A stretch of DNA of 23,175 bases from a virus. The notes below the pieces were generated by a model. The model searched no databases and had not been told where the DNA came from. It was given only the letters and a program-made list of their open reading frames with translations. A program made the translations under genes and the position numbers. Each line of letters opens with the position of its first letter. Position 1 is the stretch's first letter. The stretch covers positions 1 to 23,175 of the IMG/VR virus record IMGVR_UViG_3300005753_000040. One strand, 5' to 3'. Shown here piece after piece: positions 4,152 through 20,845 of the stretch.

Positions 4152-4627
4152 TACATCCACCTTTTTAGTGTATTATCAAATTCACCATTGACTTGTTTTG
4201 ATGATTTAACGTGGGTTGTATTGATTTTTGCTAAGGTATTAGAGGCTGATTTTGGGTGTGTCACCGCATCTTCTTGAGCAAAATTTAAATCAAATAAAGC
4301 TTCCCCGCTTTTGTCTGTTTGGTGTTTTGCACTATAAGATTTCAAGGCAACATTGACCGATCCGTATTGGGGGTGAATTAAAACACCAACACCTTTCTTC
4401 TCTAATGCTGCAATAAGGGCATCCCGCTTGCCCATATAGTCTTGCCCAATCACATAAGCTGAAAACTTATATTGACGTGCTTTTAAGCCCATATCCTCAT
4501 TATCAGGTTCATCCTTATAAGGATACTCATGCGTCGGGCCACGTCGCCCTCCACTCATACTATCGCCATCGACCAAAAACGGCACACCGCGAAAACTGGC
4601 GGCTTGCAGTTGCTCTTTCCACGCCAT
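4151..4627 (-). CDS. N-terminal half of a split gpN, DNA_circ_N domain
   Basis: This 158-residue protein starts MAWKEQLQAASFRGVPFLVD and continues with GRRGPTHEYPYKDEPDNEDM, then QYKFSAYVIGQDYMGKRDAL, then GVGVLIHPQYGSVNVALKSY. That is the DNA_circ_N domain almost end to end (Mu gpN, phage DNA circularisation/baseplate protein). After the domain come about 35 polar residues and a stop, whereas family members continue into a second, helical domain. That second domain is coded by the next gene with a TAATG junction. The start also overlaps the tape-measure stop as TAATG. Confidence 0.88.
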   Translation of the reverse strand: MAWKEQLQAASFRGVPFLVDGDSMSGGRRGPTHEYPYKDEPDNEDMGLKARQYKFSAYVIGQDYMGKRDALIAALEKKGVGVLIHPQYGSVNVALKSYSAKHQTDKSGEALFDLNFAQEDAVTHPKSASNTLAKINTTHVKSSKQVNGEFDNTLKRWM

Positions 4628-7600
4628 TAGTTGGTCATCATCCTGCCCGTATTCACCTGTATTGTGTGATCAGGTCGGGCGGATGTTAACGATTTGACCC
4701 GCACAGGTTTATCCGAGTCAATACGGACATGTAATTCAGATTTATTGGTAACACCTTTAGCTGCTGCAGCGGCATGACGGTTGGGAATATTGTCAATTCC
4801 TGTGGGCAAAGGGGTATTTAAAATAGCATTCATCTCGTCTTTTAATTGAGCTAAATGTTTAGAAAAGAACGAAAAAACAGGAGTCCACGAAGATTGTAAG
4901 TCGCTACCTGATCCTGCGAAAGCCTGCACAGGATTTGTATCCATTGCCGTATTAACCGCATTGCCCATCATGGGAAAAGATTGATTAAAATTAGTAAGCG
5001 GTACAGCCCATTGTTGCTGCAATTGCGTCGCAGCATTGCCAAATTGAACCACCTTGTTAGTATCAAAGGCTTGATCATTAGCCGCTGTAAAACTTCCCAA
5101 CGCCTCACTTGCCCAGTTACCCATCTGCTGTATTGCTGTGCCTGCAAAATCTGTGTCCTGGTCATTTGTTTTAGATTGCATAAAATCAGGTAATACTGAT
5201 TGCCAATCTAAGGAAGGTAATTCAAAAGCAGGAATAAAGCTTTTCCAATCAAAGCTAAAATCAGGCAGTAATGCCTTCCAATCCAAGGAAGGTAATTCAA
5301 AATTATCCCACTTTTCTTTTAGTCTTTGACCTAATTGTTCGCCTTGTTTGTAAAGGTTCTCGGAATCCAGAAAGGATTTGACCTGATTAGCCAATGGTTC
5401 GGCAAACTTAAGTGAGGGTAATTCAAAATTATCCCACTTTTCTTTTAGTCTTTGACCTAATTGCTCGCCTTGTTTGTAAAGGTTCTCGGAATCCAGAAAG
5501 GATTTGACCTGATTAGCCAATGGTTCGGCAAACTTAAGTGAGGGTAATTCAAAATTATCCCACTTTTCTTTTAGTCTTTGACCTAATTGCTCGCCTTGTT
5601 TGTAAAGGTTTTCAGCATCAATCCATTCTCTAAACTGAATGCCCAGTGATTCGCCTGATTTAAAAGAAGGTAATTCAATGTCAGGAATATAAAAGTCTTC
5701 TTTTCGTAGTTGATTGCCCTCACCTGAAAGTGACCCCCAAAGCCGCGAACCAAAATCACTTGCACGCTCTACTGAGCCGCCCAGTGCATCAATCGCACTG
5801 GGCAACTCAAAGGCGAGAAAGTCATGAATTCTAGGTGAATCAGTGGCAAAACTTTCAACGATGTCATCCCACCAATACCATGCTGCACCCAATGCGGTCA
5901 CTGCACCCACGGCAAGCCATACAGGTGCAGAAATTAACACAGCCCCTGCACCCACAAATGCCAACGCGCCACTCAAGGCAGTGACAGTAGTGGTAACACT
6001 GCCAAACACCGCAAATGCACCTAAACCAATAATTAGGTTATCCCATCCACCCACAAAGTCAGCAACCGCATCAACGGCTTTAAAAACGGATTTACCTACT
6101 TTGATAATTTTCTCGCCTGTTTGCCAAAGGTCTTTACCAAATTTGACCACTTGATCAGAGGTTTTTTCTGCCCATACTTTTAAGCTACCGTCTTTTGACA
6201 TCGCTTTAATATCACCTAATAGTCCATCTAATTGACTACTGAGCCAATCAAATGCACCTGACTCTAAGATTAAAAATTGAAATTCTTTATACCAATCGCC
6301 TAAGTTATCCAGCATTCCATTCCAAGTACCTGACATCTTGTCCATGCTGCCTGCGTACTTATCGTTATAGATCGCTTGCAAGGTGCTTTGCATTAAGGCT
6401 TTATTGGTTTTATCAACCCGCTTTAAGGTTTCTTTGCCATTACTGTCGATGTATTTATATTCAATCAGGTGTGTGTTTTTAACCTCGGAGCCTGATACGC
6501 CAAAGTCATTCAATGCAGCAAAATCACCCTCCATTGCCGCCGTCATTGCATCGACAGCCTCTGAAATTTCTTTACCTTTTGCAGTGGCTGCATCCCCTAA
6601 ACTTTGCAGTAGGCCGTCTTTAACAGGATCTAAACCTACCTCTCTTAATTTAATGAATTCTTCACTGACTTGAGCAATATCAAACGGAGCGTTGACAGCA
6701 AAATCCCGTATCCATGCAAAGGAATGTTCTGCTTTTTTATTATCTTGCTCTAACGCACCCAATGTGACCCGATAACGATCAAATTCTCGTGTTGTATCTG
6801 TTAGCCCTTGTAGTACCCCTAAACCTAATTCTGTTGCCAGACTTTTTCCACGCCCTCTATTTCTTGAAATTAAATTACCCCATTGGCGTAGCAAGCCACC
6901 TTGCCGCTGAACACGACGATTAGTGTGATTAAAACTATCACTCACTAAACGTTGATTAGTGACAAGCTGTCGTGCCGATCTGGATCTTGCGATAATACGT
7001 CCCCAGCTCCGTGTGACATCCGCTTGTCGTTGAATTGCAGTGCTGGTTTGATTAAAACGGCGAAATAACCGTCTCTGAGTATTAATTAATTGTTGTGAAA
7101 CCCCTCTCGTTCTTGCAATGGTACGGTTCCATGCTTGAGTTGCTCGTCCTTGTTGTCTACTGGCATTATCATTTGAGGCAGAATGTGTACGCCTTCGTCT
7201 TCCTCTTTGGCGGCGCGGTGCATTTGAATTTTCGGGCGCTTGAGTACGACGATTATCGCTATCAGAATCAATTTCACCTTGAAAGTCGCCTGCGGCACTT
7301 TGCGTTGATCTAAAGGATCGACCTAATCCTGTTACAGCGGCACTTGCCAGTCCAATAGGCGCAATTAAAAGCGAGATGGCTCCACCAATCATGCTAAAAA
7401 TACTGGCGACTGCCCCAATGGCTAAAAATGCCCCGATACCTGCGATTAGGTTATCCCAACCGCCTACAAATTCAGCAACAGTTCCAAGCATTTTATGGAA
7501 TTTTTTGCCCATATTCCAGAGCTTTTCGCCTGCACTAAAAACATTATCACCAAACTTAATAATATTGTTTGAAATGGTGGTTGCCCATTCTTGCAAGCTG

Positions 7601-8808
7601 CCATCACGCGACATAAAGTCAATTTCAAACAACAAATCACTAAGGTGGCCTTTTGCCCATTCAAACGCCCCTGCATCCATAATCATGGATTGAAAATTTG
7701 TCCAATTGTCAGAGAGATTGGAAAGCATGCCTTCCCATGTTCCTGACATTTTATCCATCGCCCCTGCATACTTATCATTTAAAATTGCTTGCAGCGTACT
7801 TTGAATAACAGCGCGATTATTTTTATCAACCCGCTTAACCATCTCTTTACCACCCGAGTCGATATAGCGGTATTCAACGAGGTTTGTACCTTTGACTAAG
7901 CTTCCTCTAATGCCAAATTCTTTTAAGCGATCATTTTCAGTGGTGACTGCATCGGATATCATCTCAATTGCTTGCAAGATAGGCTTACCCATTGCCGCAG
8001 AGGTATCACCCAGCGTCTTTAACAAGCCCTCTTTCATTGGGTCTAAACCAAAAGATTTTAGCTTTACAAACGATTCAGTAACCCCTCTGATTTCGTAAGG
8101 GGTTTTAGCGGTAAAATCCTTAATCCATGCAAAAGATTCATCGGCTTTTTCGCTGGATTTCTCCAATGTCTCTAAAATGGAGTGATAACGTTCAAGCTCT
8201 CCTGCCGTATTGGATAAACCTTTAAAGACATTAACCCCTAAAAATCCTGCGGTAGCCGTTGCACCTATCCCCCATTTAGCTCCTGTGGCTATTTTCCCCC
8301 CTGCTTTTTTGGCGGATGCAACCGTGCTATTCCAACTTTTTAGGCTTTTGCGTTGCAGTTTTATTTTTGCAGTGAGTTGATTAAAGGATTTGCCGAGGCG
8401 TTTTTGCTCATTATCGAGATCATTAGTGTATATCTTGGCACGCTTTAAGCGCTTGCTGTAAGCATTGACCTCCGCCTTTGTTTTGCCGTATCGTTCCCCT
8501 AACTTCGCCAGTTTTCTTTCTGCGGCTGCAAAGGCTTGTGTTTGACGTTTGGTAGGGTTTTCAGTGGCTTCAATTTCTTTTCTAAACTTGACAACAGCAG
8601 CACTTTGCTCACTGTATGAATTCCTTAATTCGTCATTTTTCTTTTTTAAGGTAGTGTATTTACTCACATCGGCTAATTGTGATTTTAGCACTTTGAGTTC
8701 TTTACCCGTTTTACCAATCCGTGATGCCATTCCTGACCAAGACTGAGTGATCTTTTTAGCAGGGCCTGTCCATTTGTCAATCAGATCAAGGGTAACTTGA
8801 TAATCCAT
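4627..8808 (-). CDS. Tail tape measure protein with internal duplication
   Basis: At 1393 residues this is the largest gene, in the standard place between the tail chaperones and gpN. The protein runs along the inside of the growing tube and sets tail length. Layout: residues 1-160 helical and coiled coil (KKKNDELRNSYSEQSAAVVK region); 202-480 a tape-measure domain ending in a hydrophobic stretch; 500-655 a very Arg- and Asn-rich linker with three units of about 42 residues, each with a W-x-R-x-I-A-R-type core at W560, W602 and W643; 672-950 a second copy of the tape-measure domain; about 1040-1210 ELPSL-type repeats; then a polar tail. AGAGGG precedes the ATG at 8808. The duplication should lengthen the tail compared with a single-copy ancestor. 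Confidence 0.93.
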   Translation of the reverse strand: MDYQVTLDLIDKWTGPAKKITQSWSGMASRIGKTGKELKVLKSQLADVSKYTTLKKKNDELRNSYSEQSAAVVKFRKEIEATENPTKRQTQAFAAAERKLAKLGERYGKTKAEVNAYSKRLKRAKIYTNDLDNEQKRLGKSFNQLTAKIKLQRKSLKSWNSTVASAKKAGGKIATGAKWGIGATATAGFLGVNVFKGLSNTAGELERYHSILETLEKSSEKADESFAWIKDFTAKTPYEIRGVTESFVKLKSFGLDPMKEGLLKTLGDTSAAMGKPILQAIEMISDAVTTENDRLKEFGIRGSLVKGTNLVEYRYIDSGGKEMVKRVDKNNRAVIQSTLQAILNDKYAGAMDKMSGTWEGMLSNLSDNWTNFQSMIMDAGAFEWAKGHLSDLLFEIDFMSRDGSLQEWATTISNNIIKFGDNVFSAGEKLWNMGKKFHKMLGTVAEFVGGWDNLIAGIGAFLAIGAVASIFSMIGGAISLLIAPIGLASAAVTGLGRSFRSTQSAAGDFQGEIDSDSDNRRTQAPENSNAPRRQRGRRRRTHSASNDNASRQQGRATQAWNRTIARTRGVSQQLINTQRRLFRRFNQTSTAIQRQADVTRSWGRIIARSRSARQLVTNQRLVSDSFNHTNRRVQRQGGLLRQWGNLISRNRGRGKSLATELGLGVLQGLTDTTREFDRYRVTLGALEQDNKKAEHSFAWIRDFAVNAPFDIAQVSEEFIKLREVGLDPVKDGLLQSLGDAATAKGKEISEAVDAMTAAMEGDFAALNDFGVSGSEVKNTHLIEYKYIDSNGKETLKRVDKTNKALMQSTLQAIYNDKYAGSMDKMSGTWNGMLDNLGDWYKEFQFLILESGAFDWLSSQLDGLLGDIKAMSKDGSLKVWAEKTSDQVVKFGKDLWQTGEKIIKVGKSVFKAVDAVADFVGGWDNLIIGLGAFAVFGSVTTTVTALSGALAFVGAGAVLISAPVWLAVGAVTALGAAWYWWDDIVESFATDSPRIHDFLAFELPSAIDALGGSVERASDFGSRLWGSLSGEGNQLRKEDFYIPDIELPSFKSGESLGIQFREWIDAENLYKQGEQLGQRLKEKWDNFELPSLKFAEPLANQVKSFLDSENLYKQGEQLGQRLKEKWDNFELPSLKFAEPLANQVKSFLDSENLYKQGEQLGQRLKEKWDNFELPSLDWKALLPDFSFDWKSFIPAFELPSLDWQSVLPDFMQSKTNDQDTDFAGTAIQQMGNWASEALGSFTAANDQAFDTNKVVQFGNAATQLQQQWAVPLTNFNQSFPMMGNAVNTAMDTNPVQAFAGSGSDLQSSWTPVFSFFSKHLAQLKDEMNAILNTPLPTGIDNIPNRHAAAAAKGVTNKSELHVRIDSDKPVRVKSLTSARPDHTIQVNTGRMMTN
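5291..5668 (-). repeat. 126-bp tandem repeat in the tape-measure gene, three units
   Basis: Units begin at 5291, 5417 and 5543 on the plus strand with GGTAATTCAAAATTATCCCA, an exact period of 126 bases (42 codons). The first two units are near-identical for their whole length; the third diverges in its last half. The coded unit contains LYKQGEQLGQRLKEKWDNFE then LPSLKFAEPLANQVKSFLD. Shorter ELPS half-units flank it at 5217 and 5669. The near-identity points to recent expansion by slippage or unequal recombination. Confidence 0.95.
5959..6795 (-). repeat. Tape-measure domain, copy 2
   Basis: Residues 672-950, aligned with copy 1 at an offset of about 470 residues with almost no gaps. The two copies differ at many positions, so the duplication is not recent, but motifs such as NDKYAG, MDKMSGTW and FVGGWDNLI are unchanged. 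Confidence 0.85.
7369..8205 (-). repeat. Tape-measure domain, copy 1
   Basis: Residues 202-480 of the tape measure. Shared landmarks with copy 2 are RY-x-x-x-L-x-x-LE, SFAWI-x-DF, GLDP-x-K-x-GLL, EY-x-YIDS-x-GKE, QSTLQAI-x-NDKYAG, MDKMSGTW and EFVGGWDNLI-x-G. The match probably begins further upstream, at an FN...QR...W unit near residue 142. Confidence 0.85.
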
Positions 8809-8852: not shown

Positions 8853-9301
8853 TTAGTAACGAGGAAGGCGGGCAATCGCCTGCTTTTGCCAGCGACGGAG
8901 TTGCTTAAGATTCATGCTTTTTAAGGTGGTATAATCCCAGTGAAATACCGCCGCAATATCAGCAATATGGCTTTCGATTAAAGGCCGTTTCCCATCATTT
9001 CATTTAGATAAGGACGGAAAAAAATCATATCGGGCATTTTGACTTTGCGGATAATACTGTAAGGCTCCCCTGTTACCCCTGCTAGCACTGCGATTACGCG
9101 ACTGGGTTGATCCCCTTCCATTGCTTCTAGAACAGGCCCACTGTCCACATCGCTTGGGTGTGGAATTGTTAGCTCAGTAATGGTGCGCTCACCTGATGAG
9201 ATTGGCTTGCTTAAACGGCGCGTAATCGGCCCTTTTTCTTCAGGTATATTGGTAGGTTGTTGGTTTTTAGAGGCTTCAGCATCGTGTGCGACTGTTTTCA
9301 T
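8853..9301 (-). CDS. Frameshifted tail assembly chaperone (gp41 plus gpE-like extension)
   Basis: After a -1 shift at 8987-8993 the gp41 frame continues as RPLIESHIADIAAVFHWDYT then TLKSMNLKQLRRWQKQAIAR and LPRY before a stop at 8853, giving about 149 residues. The extension is the P2 gpE pattern (ADIA-x-x-FHW, then SMNL-x-x-L-x-x-W). In P2, lambda and other tailed phages the tape measure is coated by a short chaperone and a longer frameshifted form. The extension has no good start of its own: its only internal ATG is after most of the conserved block. It occupies the gap of 169 bases that would otherwise be empty between gp41 and the tape measure. Confidence 0.85.
8978..9301 (-). CDS. Tail assembly chaperone, Mu gp41 family (unshifted form)
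   Basis: The 107-residue protein has a polar N-terminus and then RRLSKPISSGERTITELTIP, followed by VIAVLAGVTGEPYSIIRKVK and a C-terminal DMIFFRPYLNEMM. This is the Mu gp41 tail-chaperone pattern. It binds the tape measure during tail assembly and is absent from the finished tail in related phages. The gene lies between the tube and the tape measure, as expected, and ends three codons after the slippery heptamer. Confidence 0.88.
   Translation of the reverse strand: MKTVAHDAEASKNQQPTNIPEEKGPITRRLSKPISSGERTITELTIPHPSDVDSGPVLEAMEGDQPSRVIAVLAGVTGEPYSIIRKVKMPDMIFFRPYLNEMMGNGL
8987..8993 (-). promoter_or_regulatory. -1 ribosomal frameshift site GGGAAAC
   Basis: On the minus strand the gp41 frame reads ATG GGA AAC GGC, so the heptamer G GGA AAC fits the X XXY YYZ rule for simultaneous slippage to GGG AAA. 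Shifting by -1 here joins gp41 to the gpE-like frame with no stop between. The lambda G/GT site is GGGAAAG, so this is close to a proven sequence. I did not identify a clear downstream pseudoknot by eye. Confidence 0.8.
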
Positions 9302-9345: not shown

Positions 9346-9708
9346 TTACTGGATACGTTCGGATGTATTGGCCATAAATTCAATTTTGACCTCACCTGTT
9401 TCAGGCTTGCAGGGCACACTGCACCATGCTTTGGGCATCATATGTACCCCACCTTTGGAATCTTCAATGGTGATATTTTCATCCTCGACGATATTTAAAG
9501 CATAGTAATCAATGTCAACCGTATCATTGAGGGTTAGCTCTAGCTTTGACGGGTTTTGTTTTTCAGTAAACCCGCCATCGAGGGCATTCTGCCCTGCATG
9601 GTGTTCACGATCCTTTCCCCAAGGGGTAAAGGTACTTTCATTATCTTTAATCGGTAATTGACCAAAACTGGGCAATGTTACCGACATAATTTGTATTAAA
9701 CGTGCCAT
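9346..9708 (-). CDS. Tail tube protein, Mu gpM family
   Basis: The 120-residue protein starts MARLIQIMSVTLPSFGQLPI and contains LDGGFTEKQNPSKLELTLND and PKAWCSVPCKPETGEVKIEF, a beta-rich layout and length close to the Mu tube (about 118 residues). It polymerises as stacked hexamers inside the sheath. I chose the ATG at 9708 because the upstream part of the frame overlaps the sheath gene and does not look like tube sequence. GAGAA about 9 bases upstream is a modest ribosome binding site. It follows the sheath gene directly. Confidence 0.88.
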   Translation of the reverse strand: MARLIQIMSVTLPSFGQLPIKDNESTFTPWGKDREHHAGQNALDGGFTEKQNPSKLELTLNDTVDIDYYALNIVEDENITIEDSKGGVHMMPKAWCSVPCKPETGEVKIEFMANTSERIQ

Positions 9709-9724: not shown

Positions 9725-11179
9725 TTATTTGAATGCAACCTGTCCAGCAAGGACGCGGAATTGACCAATCAAGGTAGTTTGATCTCTAAAGTCAACCCGA
9801 TCAGGGTCATTGTGATGTATCTCAACCAGCAAGGTATCTTTGTAATGCTCAAGGTCTTGTACCCAGCCCCGTTCGTACATAAAGGTATGTTGATACAAGG
9901 TGATTAAATCGCCTTTAATCATGGCAGGTGTGACGATTTTTTGCCCTGCCCCGTATTCATCCGCTTTTTTGGCCAATTTCCAGCGCGGGTATTTACTCAT
10001 AATTGTGTAACGCTGTAACTGTCGAATCATACTGAGCGTTTCGGGTACTTGAATATCGAGGTAGGCATCATCAGTGAAGCCCTGCTCATTACGTTGATAC
10101 ATAGTAATTTGCCGCTCTAGCTGCACCGTGCCATCAAATTGGGTTTTGATGGTGGCAATGCCTGCAAATAGCAATTGATTGCGCTCTGCACGACTCGCTT
10201 GAAAGCTGGGTGCAATCATGGCGGGTAACTCAAGATATTGCAGCGGGCGAGCGGGATCGATGGCGAGCCGTTTAGTGGCCACTGCCGCATTGACGGTCGC
10301 CACCCACCACGGTGGATTCGGGCTATCAAAGGTAGCAACACAGGTGTAATGTGGACAGTTTTGGGATTCACCAAGGGCGCGAATTTTATCGTATGTACCA
10401 CTCTTGGCCATAAAGACCCGCCCGTCTATTTGACGCATTGGCCCCCAGCGTGAATCCATTTCAACTTCTAATTTATTTAGATTTTCCGCATCCGTAAAAG
10501 GATTGACAATATAGTGATATTGGGTTTGATCCATTGCATCCACTAATTCTTGCAAATCGGGTTCACCCGCGCCATCTTTCATGTCAAGAATAGTGGTATC
10601 CGCTCTGTTTTTATGATCATACAAATGATCATAAACAGAAATATTATTGCCAATCAGTCCAGCATATTTTGCGGTTAATTGCACAATATTATCGATAGAT
10701 TCATCAATGGCAGCGGTCACAGGTAACAACCAATCATCATTAATGGCTAGCATAATTTTTCGAGCAATAATGGCTTTACTGTCACCTTTTTTAATTGTAA
10801 CCGCGATTTTCTTTGCATCAATCCAGACTTTATACAAGCTGGTGGTGGTTGCGTCTGCATTGCAAATAATCATACCTGACGCAGCAATGGCGGCATCAGG
10901 TAAGGTCAATGCAATACCATAAAGATCATGTTCGGGTGTAATTTCTTTAAAGCATTGTGCCATACGCTCTAGCATCGAACCATTACCCCATTTGGTGCGA
11001 GCAGCATCAGCACGCGAAATGGGCAGTATTTTTCCTGTGGGTTCTTCACCTTGCGCGGTTTTATAACCGACTAAGATGACTTTTTTTAATTCTGACCAGT
11101 TCGCGTGTCGTGCTTCAAACTCGATAAAGGCACCGGGCGTGCGAAGGTTTTCGGGAATTTCATTAAATGAAATGGGCAT
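9725..11179 (-). CDS. Contractile tail sheath, Mu gpL family
   Basis: This 484-residue protein begins MPISFNEIPENLRTPGAFIE, the standard start of Mu-type sheaths (residues PxNxRxPG). The middle carries DTTILDMKDGAGEPDLQELV then the QYHYIVNPFTD strand, and the C-terminal domain has WAxK-type residues, MSKYPRWKLAKKADEYGAGQ and VDFRDQTTLIGQFRVLAGQV. The C-terminal domain forms the inner sheath wall that binds the tube and handshakes with neighbours. AAGGAATTATT before the ATG is a good ribosome binding site. Sheath then tube is the normal Mu order. Confidence 0.95.
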   Translation of the reverse strand: MPISFNEIPENLRTPGAFIEFEARHANWSELKKVILVGYKTAQGEEPTGKILPISRADAARTKWGNGSMLERMAQCFKEITPEHDLYGIALTLPDAAIAASGMIICNADATTTSLYKVWIDAKKIAVTIKKGDSKAIIARKIMLAINDDWLLPVTAAIDESIDNIVQLTAKYAGLIGNNISVYDHLYDHKNRADTTILDMKDGAGEPDLQELVDAMDQTQYHYIVNPFTDAENLNKLEVEMDSRWGPMRQIDGRVFMAKSGTYDKIRALGESQNCPHYTCVATFDSPNPPWWVATVNAAVATKRLAIDPARPLQYLELPAMIAPSFQASRAERNQLLFAGIATIKTQFDGTVQLERQITMYQRNEQGFTDDAYLDIQVPETLSMIRQLQRYTIMSKYPRWKLAKKADEYGAGQKIVTPAMIKGDLITLYQHTFMYERGWVQDLEHYKDTLLVEIHHNDPDRVDFRDQTTLIGQFRVLAGQVAFK

Positions 11180-18766: not shown

Positions 18767-20845
18767 ATGAGGGATACAAAAGAATTACAAGATCAAGCGT
18801 ATAAGCATTTTCGGTTAGGTATTTATACCCCGACTGAAATCTGTGAAATGCTCGACATTAATTACAATACATTGATGTCATGGAAGCGACGTGGCAACTG
18901 GACTGAATTAACGGGCATTAAAAAAGTCACTATTGCGCTGGATGCACGCCTTCAATTTTTAATCAGCAAGGAAGGTAAGAATGATAAAGACTATCGTGAA
19001 GTCAAAGTATTAGGGGATGAATTACGAAAAAATGAATTAGCGATTGTTAAGGCAGAACGTTACCAAGCAAAGGGATCTACCCGTGATAGCGATTTTAATC
19101 CTAAATTAAAAACACATGGCCGAAAAAGCAATAAACAAAAAAACTATCTTTCGCCTGAAAATATTGAACAGCTAGAAAAAGCCTTTTTAGCCGAAACGCA
19201 GCGTTATGGCCATCAAAAGACGTGGTATGAAAATCGCCATCGACGCACCCGTAATATCATGAAATCACGGCAGATTGGCGCAACCTATTACTTTGCACTG
19301 GAATCGATTGTTGATGCAGCCAAACGCGGTATTAATAAAAATTTCCTTTCTGCTTCACGCTCTCAAGCCTTGCTATTCCGTGCCTATATCGTAGCCTTTG
19401 TTTATCGGGAAATAGGGATTGAATTAAAAGGTGATCCGATTGTTTTACGCACCGATGATCACGTTGATGTTGATTTACGCTTTTTGTCTGCATCGTCTAA
19501 CTCCGCTCAAGGCCCCCACGGGGATATTATTACCGATGAATACATGTGGCATCGGGATTTTGAGCGGTTAAGAAAAGTATCCTCTGCGATTGCAACGCAA
19601 AAAATGTATAAAAAGGTGTATATCTCAACCCCTTCCACTGTCAATCATCCTGCCTATAAATTCTGGTCGGGCGAACATATCAATCGGGGTCGCCGCAAAG
19701 ACAAACAGGTGCATTTTGATATATCCCATAAATCCTTGAAAAAGGGACGATTATGTGAAGATCATCAGTGGCGGCAAGTGGTCACACTGCAAGATGCCAT
19801 TGATCAGGGTTTTGATCGGATTGATAAAGATGAATTGGAAATGGAGTATGCACCTGATGAATATGATCAATTATTCAACTGCAAATTTATTGATGACACT
19901 GACTCCGTATTCAAGTTTGAAGAAATGCAAAAGTGCGGTATCGATCCCAGTACGCGCTGGTCTGACTATGATGCGGATTCAGACCGACCCTTTGGCAATC
20001 AACCTGTGTGGATTGGTTTTGATCCGAGTAGAACCATTGATGCTGCAGCCTGTGCGGTGGTTGCCCCACCCAGTACACCAGGGGGAAAATTCCGTGTCCT
20101 AGAGAAATACTCATGGCGCGGTGCATCGTTTGAATATCAAGCAAACCGTATTGAAGAATTAACCCATCGCTTTAATGTAAAAGAAATTGCCATTGATTCA
20201 ACGGGCTTAGGACATGGCGTGTTTGAAGAAGTTAGGAAATTCTTCAGACGCGTTAAAGCCATTCATTACTCACAATCTGTTAAAGCGGATTTAGTCATGA
20301 AGGGCAAGGATGTTATTGCCAATAAGCGCCTTGAATATAATGCAGGTTGGTCTGAAGTCAGTAAGTCATTCATGATGATTTACAAAACCAGTACTGATAC
20401 AGGATCCATCACCTATAAAGCCACTCGAACTGCCGATACAGGTCATGCAGATATTGCCTTTGCAATTTTACATGCACTTAGCTTTGAACCCCTCGGTCGT
20501 AGAGTTCGCAAAACAAGAGTCTCAAGAAGGAATAAAGATAATGAGCGAAAAAACCCGCAAAACTCGCGTATACAAGCTCGAAAAGCCCGTAGAACTCGGC
20601 GGAATGAACAATCTATTGGGGTTTCTCGGCGCATATTGGAACGGGGAATATTACGAAACGCCCCTCAATTTAGCGGGATTGGCCGATGCCAGAACCGCTA
20701 TTCCTTATCACGAATCCGCAATGGACGTGAAGCGGCAAATGCTGATGTCTACCATCAAAGTAACTCGTCCCGACCTTATCGATCCCGACGAGGTGGAAAA
20801 CCTGATAGACGACCTGCTGTGGTCAGGCAACTATTATCTGCATAA
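18767..20845 (+). CDS. P: Terminase ATPase-nuclease, P2 gpP family, with abnormal C-terminus
   Basis: Residues 1-60 hold a helix-turn-helix (FRLGIYTPTEICEMLDINYN then TLMSWKRRGNW). The ATPase part has KSRQIGATYYFALES as the modified Walker A and DIITDEYMW as Walker B, followed by VYISTPST. The nuclease part has acidic residues in IGFDPSRTIDAAA, IAIDSTGLG and GHADIAFAILHAL. It packages DNA into the head. Similarity stops at FEPL, residue 576, near the P2 length of 590. The frame then runs on for 116 Arg-rich residues (GRRVRKTRVSRRNKDNERKN) to 20845, overlapping Q by 305 bases, which looks like loss of the natural stop. The ATG at 18767 has no clear ribosome binding site; a GTG at 18722 is the alternative. 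Confidence 0.9.
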   Translation: MRDTKELQDQAYKHFRLGIYTPTEICEMLDINYNTLMSWKRRGNWTELTGIKKVTIALDARLQFLISKEGKNDKDYREVKVLGDELRKNELAIVKAERYQAKGSTRDSDFNPKLKTHGRKSNKQKNYLSPENIEQLEKAFLAETQRYGHQKTWYENRHRRTRNIMKSRQIGATYYFALESIVDAAKRGINKNFLSASRSQALLFRAYIVAFVYREIGIELKGDPIVLRTDDHVDVDLRFLSASSNSAQGPHGDIITDEYMWHRDFERLRKVSSAIATQKMYKKVYISTPSTVNHPAYKFWSGEHINRGRRKDKQVHFDISHKSLKKGRLCEDHQWRQVVTLQDAIDQGFDRIDKDELEMEYAPDEYDQLFNCKFIDDTDSVFKFEEMQKCGIDPSTRWSDYDADSDRPFGNQPVWIGFDPSRTIDAAACAVVAPPSTPGGKFRVLEKYSWRGASFEYQANRIEELTHRFNVKEIAIDSTGLGHGVFEEVRKFFRRVKAIHYSQSVKADLVMKGKDVIANKRLEYNAGWSEVSKSFMMIYKTSTDTGSITYKATRTADTGHADIAFAILHALSFEPLGRRVRKTRVSRRNKDNERKNPQNSRIQARKARRTRRNEQSIGVSRRILERGILRNAPQFSGIGRCQNRYSLSRIRNGREAANADVYHQSNSSRPYRSRRGGKPDRRPAVVRQLLSA

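Follow-up and report, generated by a model that had tools for sequence, protein, structure and literature searches.

Phage P2 encodes two products of one tail assembly chaperone gene, E (91 aa) and, by a -1 shift at TTTTTTG, E+E' (142 aa) (PMC3091744). We ran the same profiles on P2 and Mu for comparison with the locus described here. The 0-frame gpE of P2 matches Phage_TAC_7 (1.5e-12) and its -1 extension E' matches Phage_P2_GpE (2e-22). Mu gp41 matches Gp41_Mu (PF23746, 9e-35), and its extension, reached by a -2 shift that is called verified in the annotation of the Mu record, has no Pfam match. Lambda gpG/gpGT and the g-t pair of the haloarchaeal virus HCTV-1 use the same mechanism with other proteins, the latter shifting at GGGAAAC (PMC5009743).

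The window analyzed here is a stretch of viral DNA of 23,175 nucleotides (IMG/VR record IMGVR_UViG_3300005753_000040). An earlier note had described a frameshift pair at 8853-9301, and had interpreted it as a Mu gp41 reading into a P2 gpE. The gene and its neighbors are as follows.

4627..8808, minus strand: tape measure protein, next gene downstream (Pfam TMP_3, 8e-20)
8853..8987, minus strand: -1 frame extension E', 44 aa plus stop (PF06528, 8e-11; third-position substitutions relative to the prophage locus L019)
8868..8966, minus strand: core of the PF06528 (E') domain (profile search, 40.4 bits, E=6.8e-12)
8978..9301, minus strand: 0-frame tail assembly chaperone of the P2 gpE type, 107 aa (open frame and P2-E-type HMM)
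8987..8993, minus strand: slippery heptamer G_GGA_AAC for predicted -1 frameshifting (in phase; identical in L019)
9346..9702, minus strand: Mu-type tail tube protein, gene upstream (Pfam Tail_tube, 1.4e-12)
9725..11179, minus strand: Mu-type tail sheath (Phage_sheath_1, 1.3e-19; 34% identity to Mu gpL across 99% of its length)

The coordinates of the pair in the earlier note are right. The 0-frame runs from 9301 to 8978, and re-reading from C8987 in the -1 frame gives RPLIESHIADIAAVFHWDYTTLKSMNLKQLRRWQKQAIARLPRY, followed by a stop at 8855-8853. The predicted fusion is 149 residues long, reproducing the length expected earlier, with a junction peptide predicted to contain ...EMMGNRPLIESH....

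The locus resembles P2 E/E+E' in its position between the tail tube and tape measure genes, in the predicted -1 shift, in the presence of PF06528 in the -1 frame and in the sizes of its products (107/149 aa, compared to 91/142 aa). It differs from P2 in its heptamer, in its divergent 0-frame and in its Mu-type sheath, tube and baseplate neighbors. In Bordetella phage PBb001 and Citrobacter phage phiNP, too, the sheath is Mu-type and the chaperones form a -1 pair of the E/E' type, although these phages have TTTTTTG at the site and other head genes. Mu gp41/gp41-56 shares the operon position, the presumed role and the Mu-type sheath and tube neighbors, but has a -2 shift at a different motif, belongs to the Gp41_Mu family and carries an extension that is not PF06528. 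We conclude that the gene is very probably a P2-type tail assembly chaperone, E/E+E', with presumed minority -1 slippage on G_GGA_AAC.

A Pfam search assigns the -1 frame to PF06528 (Phage_P2_GpE), the family of P2 E', at 8e-11 (41.7 bits, gathering cut-off 23), so the gpE-like domain recognized earlier from the sequence alone is confirmed by a profile; a search of NCBIfam gave no matches. The match of the 0-frame to Phage_TAC_7 is below the Pfam threshold (E=0.1). However, it is of the P2 gpE type by our own HMMs, one made from 16 E-type and the other from about 90 Mu-type chaperones, both without the window and L019: it scores 25.4 bits with the former and 2.8 bits with the latter, and HHalign gives 95.6% for the E-type compared to 4.1% for the Mu-type. 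No match of the 0-frame to Gp41_Mu (PF23746) was found in the Pfam search at E<=1, and the -2 frame of the window is open for just 11 codons. By these profiles, both frames are parts of one known two-frame gene, P2-type E plus E'. The appearance of a chimera arises because Pfam calls E' "GpE", and because one family title, that of Phage_TAC_7, lumps E with gp41 ('E, or 41 or 14').

The phage itself is mosaic, its head being P2-type and its tail Mu-type, with the mosaic boundary outside the chaperone gene. Between 857 and 21530, P2-type genes for the head (GPO, P2 capsid, GPL, terminase and portal) and for completion proteins (P2 GpR and tail S-type) are found together with a Mu-type tail and baseplate. 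The Mu-type proteins are the sheath, the tube, the circularization protein (DNA_circ_N), GpP/gp44 and gp45, and a baseplate J protein is also present. This tail and the Phage_TAC_7 title speak for a Mu gp41-type chaperone having been joined to a P2-type E' domain by a new slippery site. Such a union of two phage types is nevertheless very unlikely and already largely refuted, as the 0-frame lacks a Gp41_Mu match and scores much higher with the P2-E-type profile than with the Mu-type one, as Mu reaches its own extension by a -2 shift without a PF06528 match, and as the two kinds of protein do not occur together in a census of Mu-type tails.

The census covered the region downstream of the sheath in 176 loci with a Mu-type sheath, collected from sheath searches and phage records. 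An HMM of E' matches 44 of these loci at 15 bits or more, the window included, compared to a best score of 11.2 bits among 17,370 reversed or shuffled sequences; when built without the window and L019, it still gives the window 32.6 bits. Mu gp41-type proteins, 75 of them distinct and many encoded by a single genome, are present in 97 loci, none of which has an E' domain, and 35 loci are unclassified. All 44 E' loci have a neighboring ORF in the -1 relation; in 11 of them the other phase holds an ORF as well, and some 0-frame assignments, few in number, are doubtful. In 39 of the 44, an XXXYYYZ heptamer, most frequently TTTTTTG, lies in phase and the path from it is open. The inspected Mu gp41-type examples either use a -2 shift or are compatible with one. 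Since a quarter of the loci (44/176) contain E', E/E' pairs are common in Mu-type tails. Many contigs of Methylophaga thiooxydans DMS010 (L031-L042, L062) carry the same Mu-type tail, with 38% identity to the sheath of the window, which suggests either numerous copies of the prophage or an artefact of the assembly.

Two further genes of the window have unusual features. In the tape measure protein (4627-8808, minus strand), the presence of two TMP_3 stretches and of blocks of repeated sequence suggests an internal duplication of several hundred residues. Within its gene, a near-perfect 126-bp tandem repeat (5291-5610, minus strand; 2.5 copies, 99%) encodes repeated LYKQGEQLGQRLKEKWDNFELPSLKFAEPLANQVKSFLDSEN units and is possibly a site of tail-length variation. 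At 20445-20845 (plus strand), the terminase ORF stays open for ~115 residues beyond its nuclease domain, overlapping with the portal ORF, which lies in a different frame. Either a small indel or an overlap of an unusual kind would account for this.

The candidate shift site is a heptamer of the X_XXY_YYZ form, in phase and close to the 0-frame stop, from which the -1 path is open. GGGAAAC (8993-8987) is followed by GGC CTT TAA, leaving two sense codons before the stop where the earlier note, correct about the heptamer, had counted three codons. The heptamer alone is not significant, with one copy in the window compared to 2.4 expected; an in-phase canonical heptamer would occur by chance within the last 8 codons in ~4% of cases, or 17% with the local amino acids fixed. 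It carries weight because it sits inside the single ~20-nt stretch in which both frames are open together, is conserved exactly in L019 and precedes a -1 frame under selection. GGGAAAC was found only in the window and L019 among the census loci, with GGGAAAG in one other (L147), and is mildly unusual for E/E' in place of the T-run type. In E. coli, a strong tendency to shift has been described for G_GGA_AAG rather than for the form ending in AAC (PMC5009743).

A second 0-frame heptamer further upstream, TTTTTTC, was rejected as the shift site, as a -1 stop precedes the opening of the E' ORF and L019 has no counterpart. The idea that it is a relic of an ancestral shift site was also dropped, because the spacing between shift site and domain, usually 11-12 codons, is better approximated by GGGAAAC (8 codons) than by TTTTTTC (about 18).

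Alternatively, E' could be an independent small protein made from its own start codon, with the heptamer incidental. An ATG does stand at the start of the E' domain in L019 and in P2, and the chance occurrence of the heptamer alone (~4-17%) would allow this. However, the window has ATT at this position, its -1 ORF has no ATG, GTG or TTG from the opening up to the domain, with the first ATG being mid-domain; such a start is also lacking in 21 of the 44 E' loci of the census, and the heptamer is conserved exactly. We therefore regard an independent start as highly improbable and frameshifting as the likely route to E'. The recoding signal proposed in the earlier note is thus upheld by the site, the -1 domain, its conservation in L019 and the lack of an alternative start, whereas the joining of Mu gp41 to P2 gpE is not.

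The conservation evidence comes from one close relative, L019, a prophage locus of the Thiotrichales MAG BB31 whose tail region is 79% identical in nucleotide sequence to the window. L019 shares the layout, including the stop of the 0-frame and the domain of the -1 frame, and carries the identical heptamer within an invariant stretch; it differs in the ATG at the domain start and in the loss of the T-rich run at MIFF. Over 41 codons of the -1 frame, the two differ by 6, 5 and 25 substitutions at codon positions 1, 2 and 3 (25 of 36 at the third), and the changed codons comprise 19 synonymous and 9 non-synonymous. In this pairwise alignment, the predominance of third-position changes shows selection on the -1 frame. 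It also counts against an assembly indel within what is really one frame, or a degenerate -1 frame. The record behind the window is a single metagenomic viral contig, which leaves room for such an error, but L019 is an independent assembly with both frames and the same 0-frame stop, and we consider this explanation scarcely credible. No match to the fusion was found by tblastn against phage records, and no relatives were found when viral contigs were scanned with the fusion, tube or sheath alone or with the two-sequence fusion alignment. MAG BB31 also contains a second E/E' locus (L180), with an adjoining tube gene that looks P2-type and the heptamers GGGTTTT/TTTTTTC.

Folding of the mRNA after 8987, proposed earlier as a check for a stimulatory structure, identified one candidate.

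8945..8968, minus strand: candidate hairpin, 9 bp, 18 nt downstream of the heptamer (fold z and pairing kept in L019)

All nine pairs are kept in L019, two of them changed on both sides, in a comparison of just two sequences, too few to establish conservation; taking the structure as a whole, 122 of 500 shuffles perform equally well. The fold z of this candidate stimulator is only -1.1 in the window (-1.7 to -2.0 in L019). An Rfam search of the window gave no match. No such hairpin was seen in P2-like Burkholderia phages (PMC3091744). It is conceivable, if rather unlikely, that this Thiotrichales-associated lineage replaced a T-run shift site by G_GGA_AAC, aided by a conserved downstream hairpin, an arrangement unreported in P2 and in its Burkholderia relatives.

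For the P2-type E/E+E' gene preferred here, most ribosomes would terminate at the 0-frame TAA and yield the short chaperone E (107 aa), while a minority would slip -1 on G_GGA_AAC and yield E+E' (149 aa). We infer this slippage and its efficiency, as well as the role in assembly, which follows the many-to-one gpG:gpGT model described in a review (PMC5009743). As proposed for lambda gpG/gpGT, the tape measure protein would be covered by numerous E molecules, and a small number of E+E' molecules would recruit tail tube subunits through the E' part.

The kind of gene pair is already well known, and the locus adds a GGGAAAC example to the conserved frameshift of tail chaperones. It also illustrates how the Pfam name "Phage P2 GpE", given to what is really E', can make a standard gene pair resemble a chimera. 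Among the loci classified here, Mu-type tails have one of two mutually exclusive chaperones, either a P2-like E/E' with a -1 shift or the Mu gp41 type.
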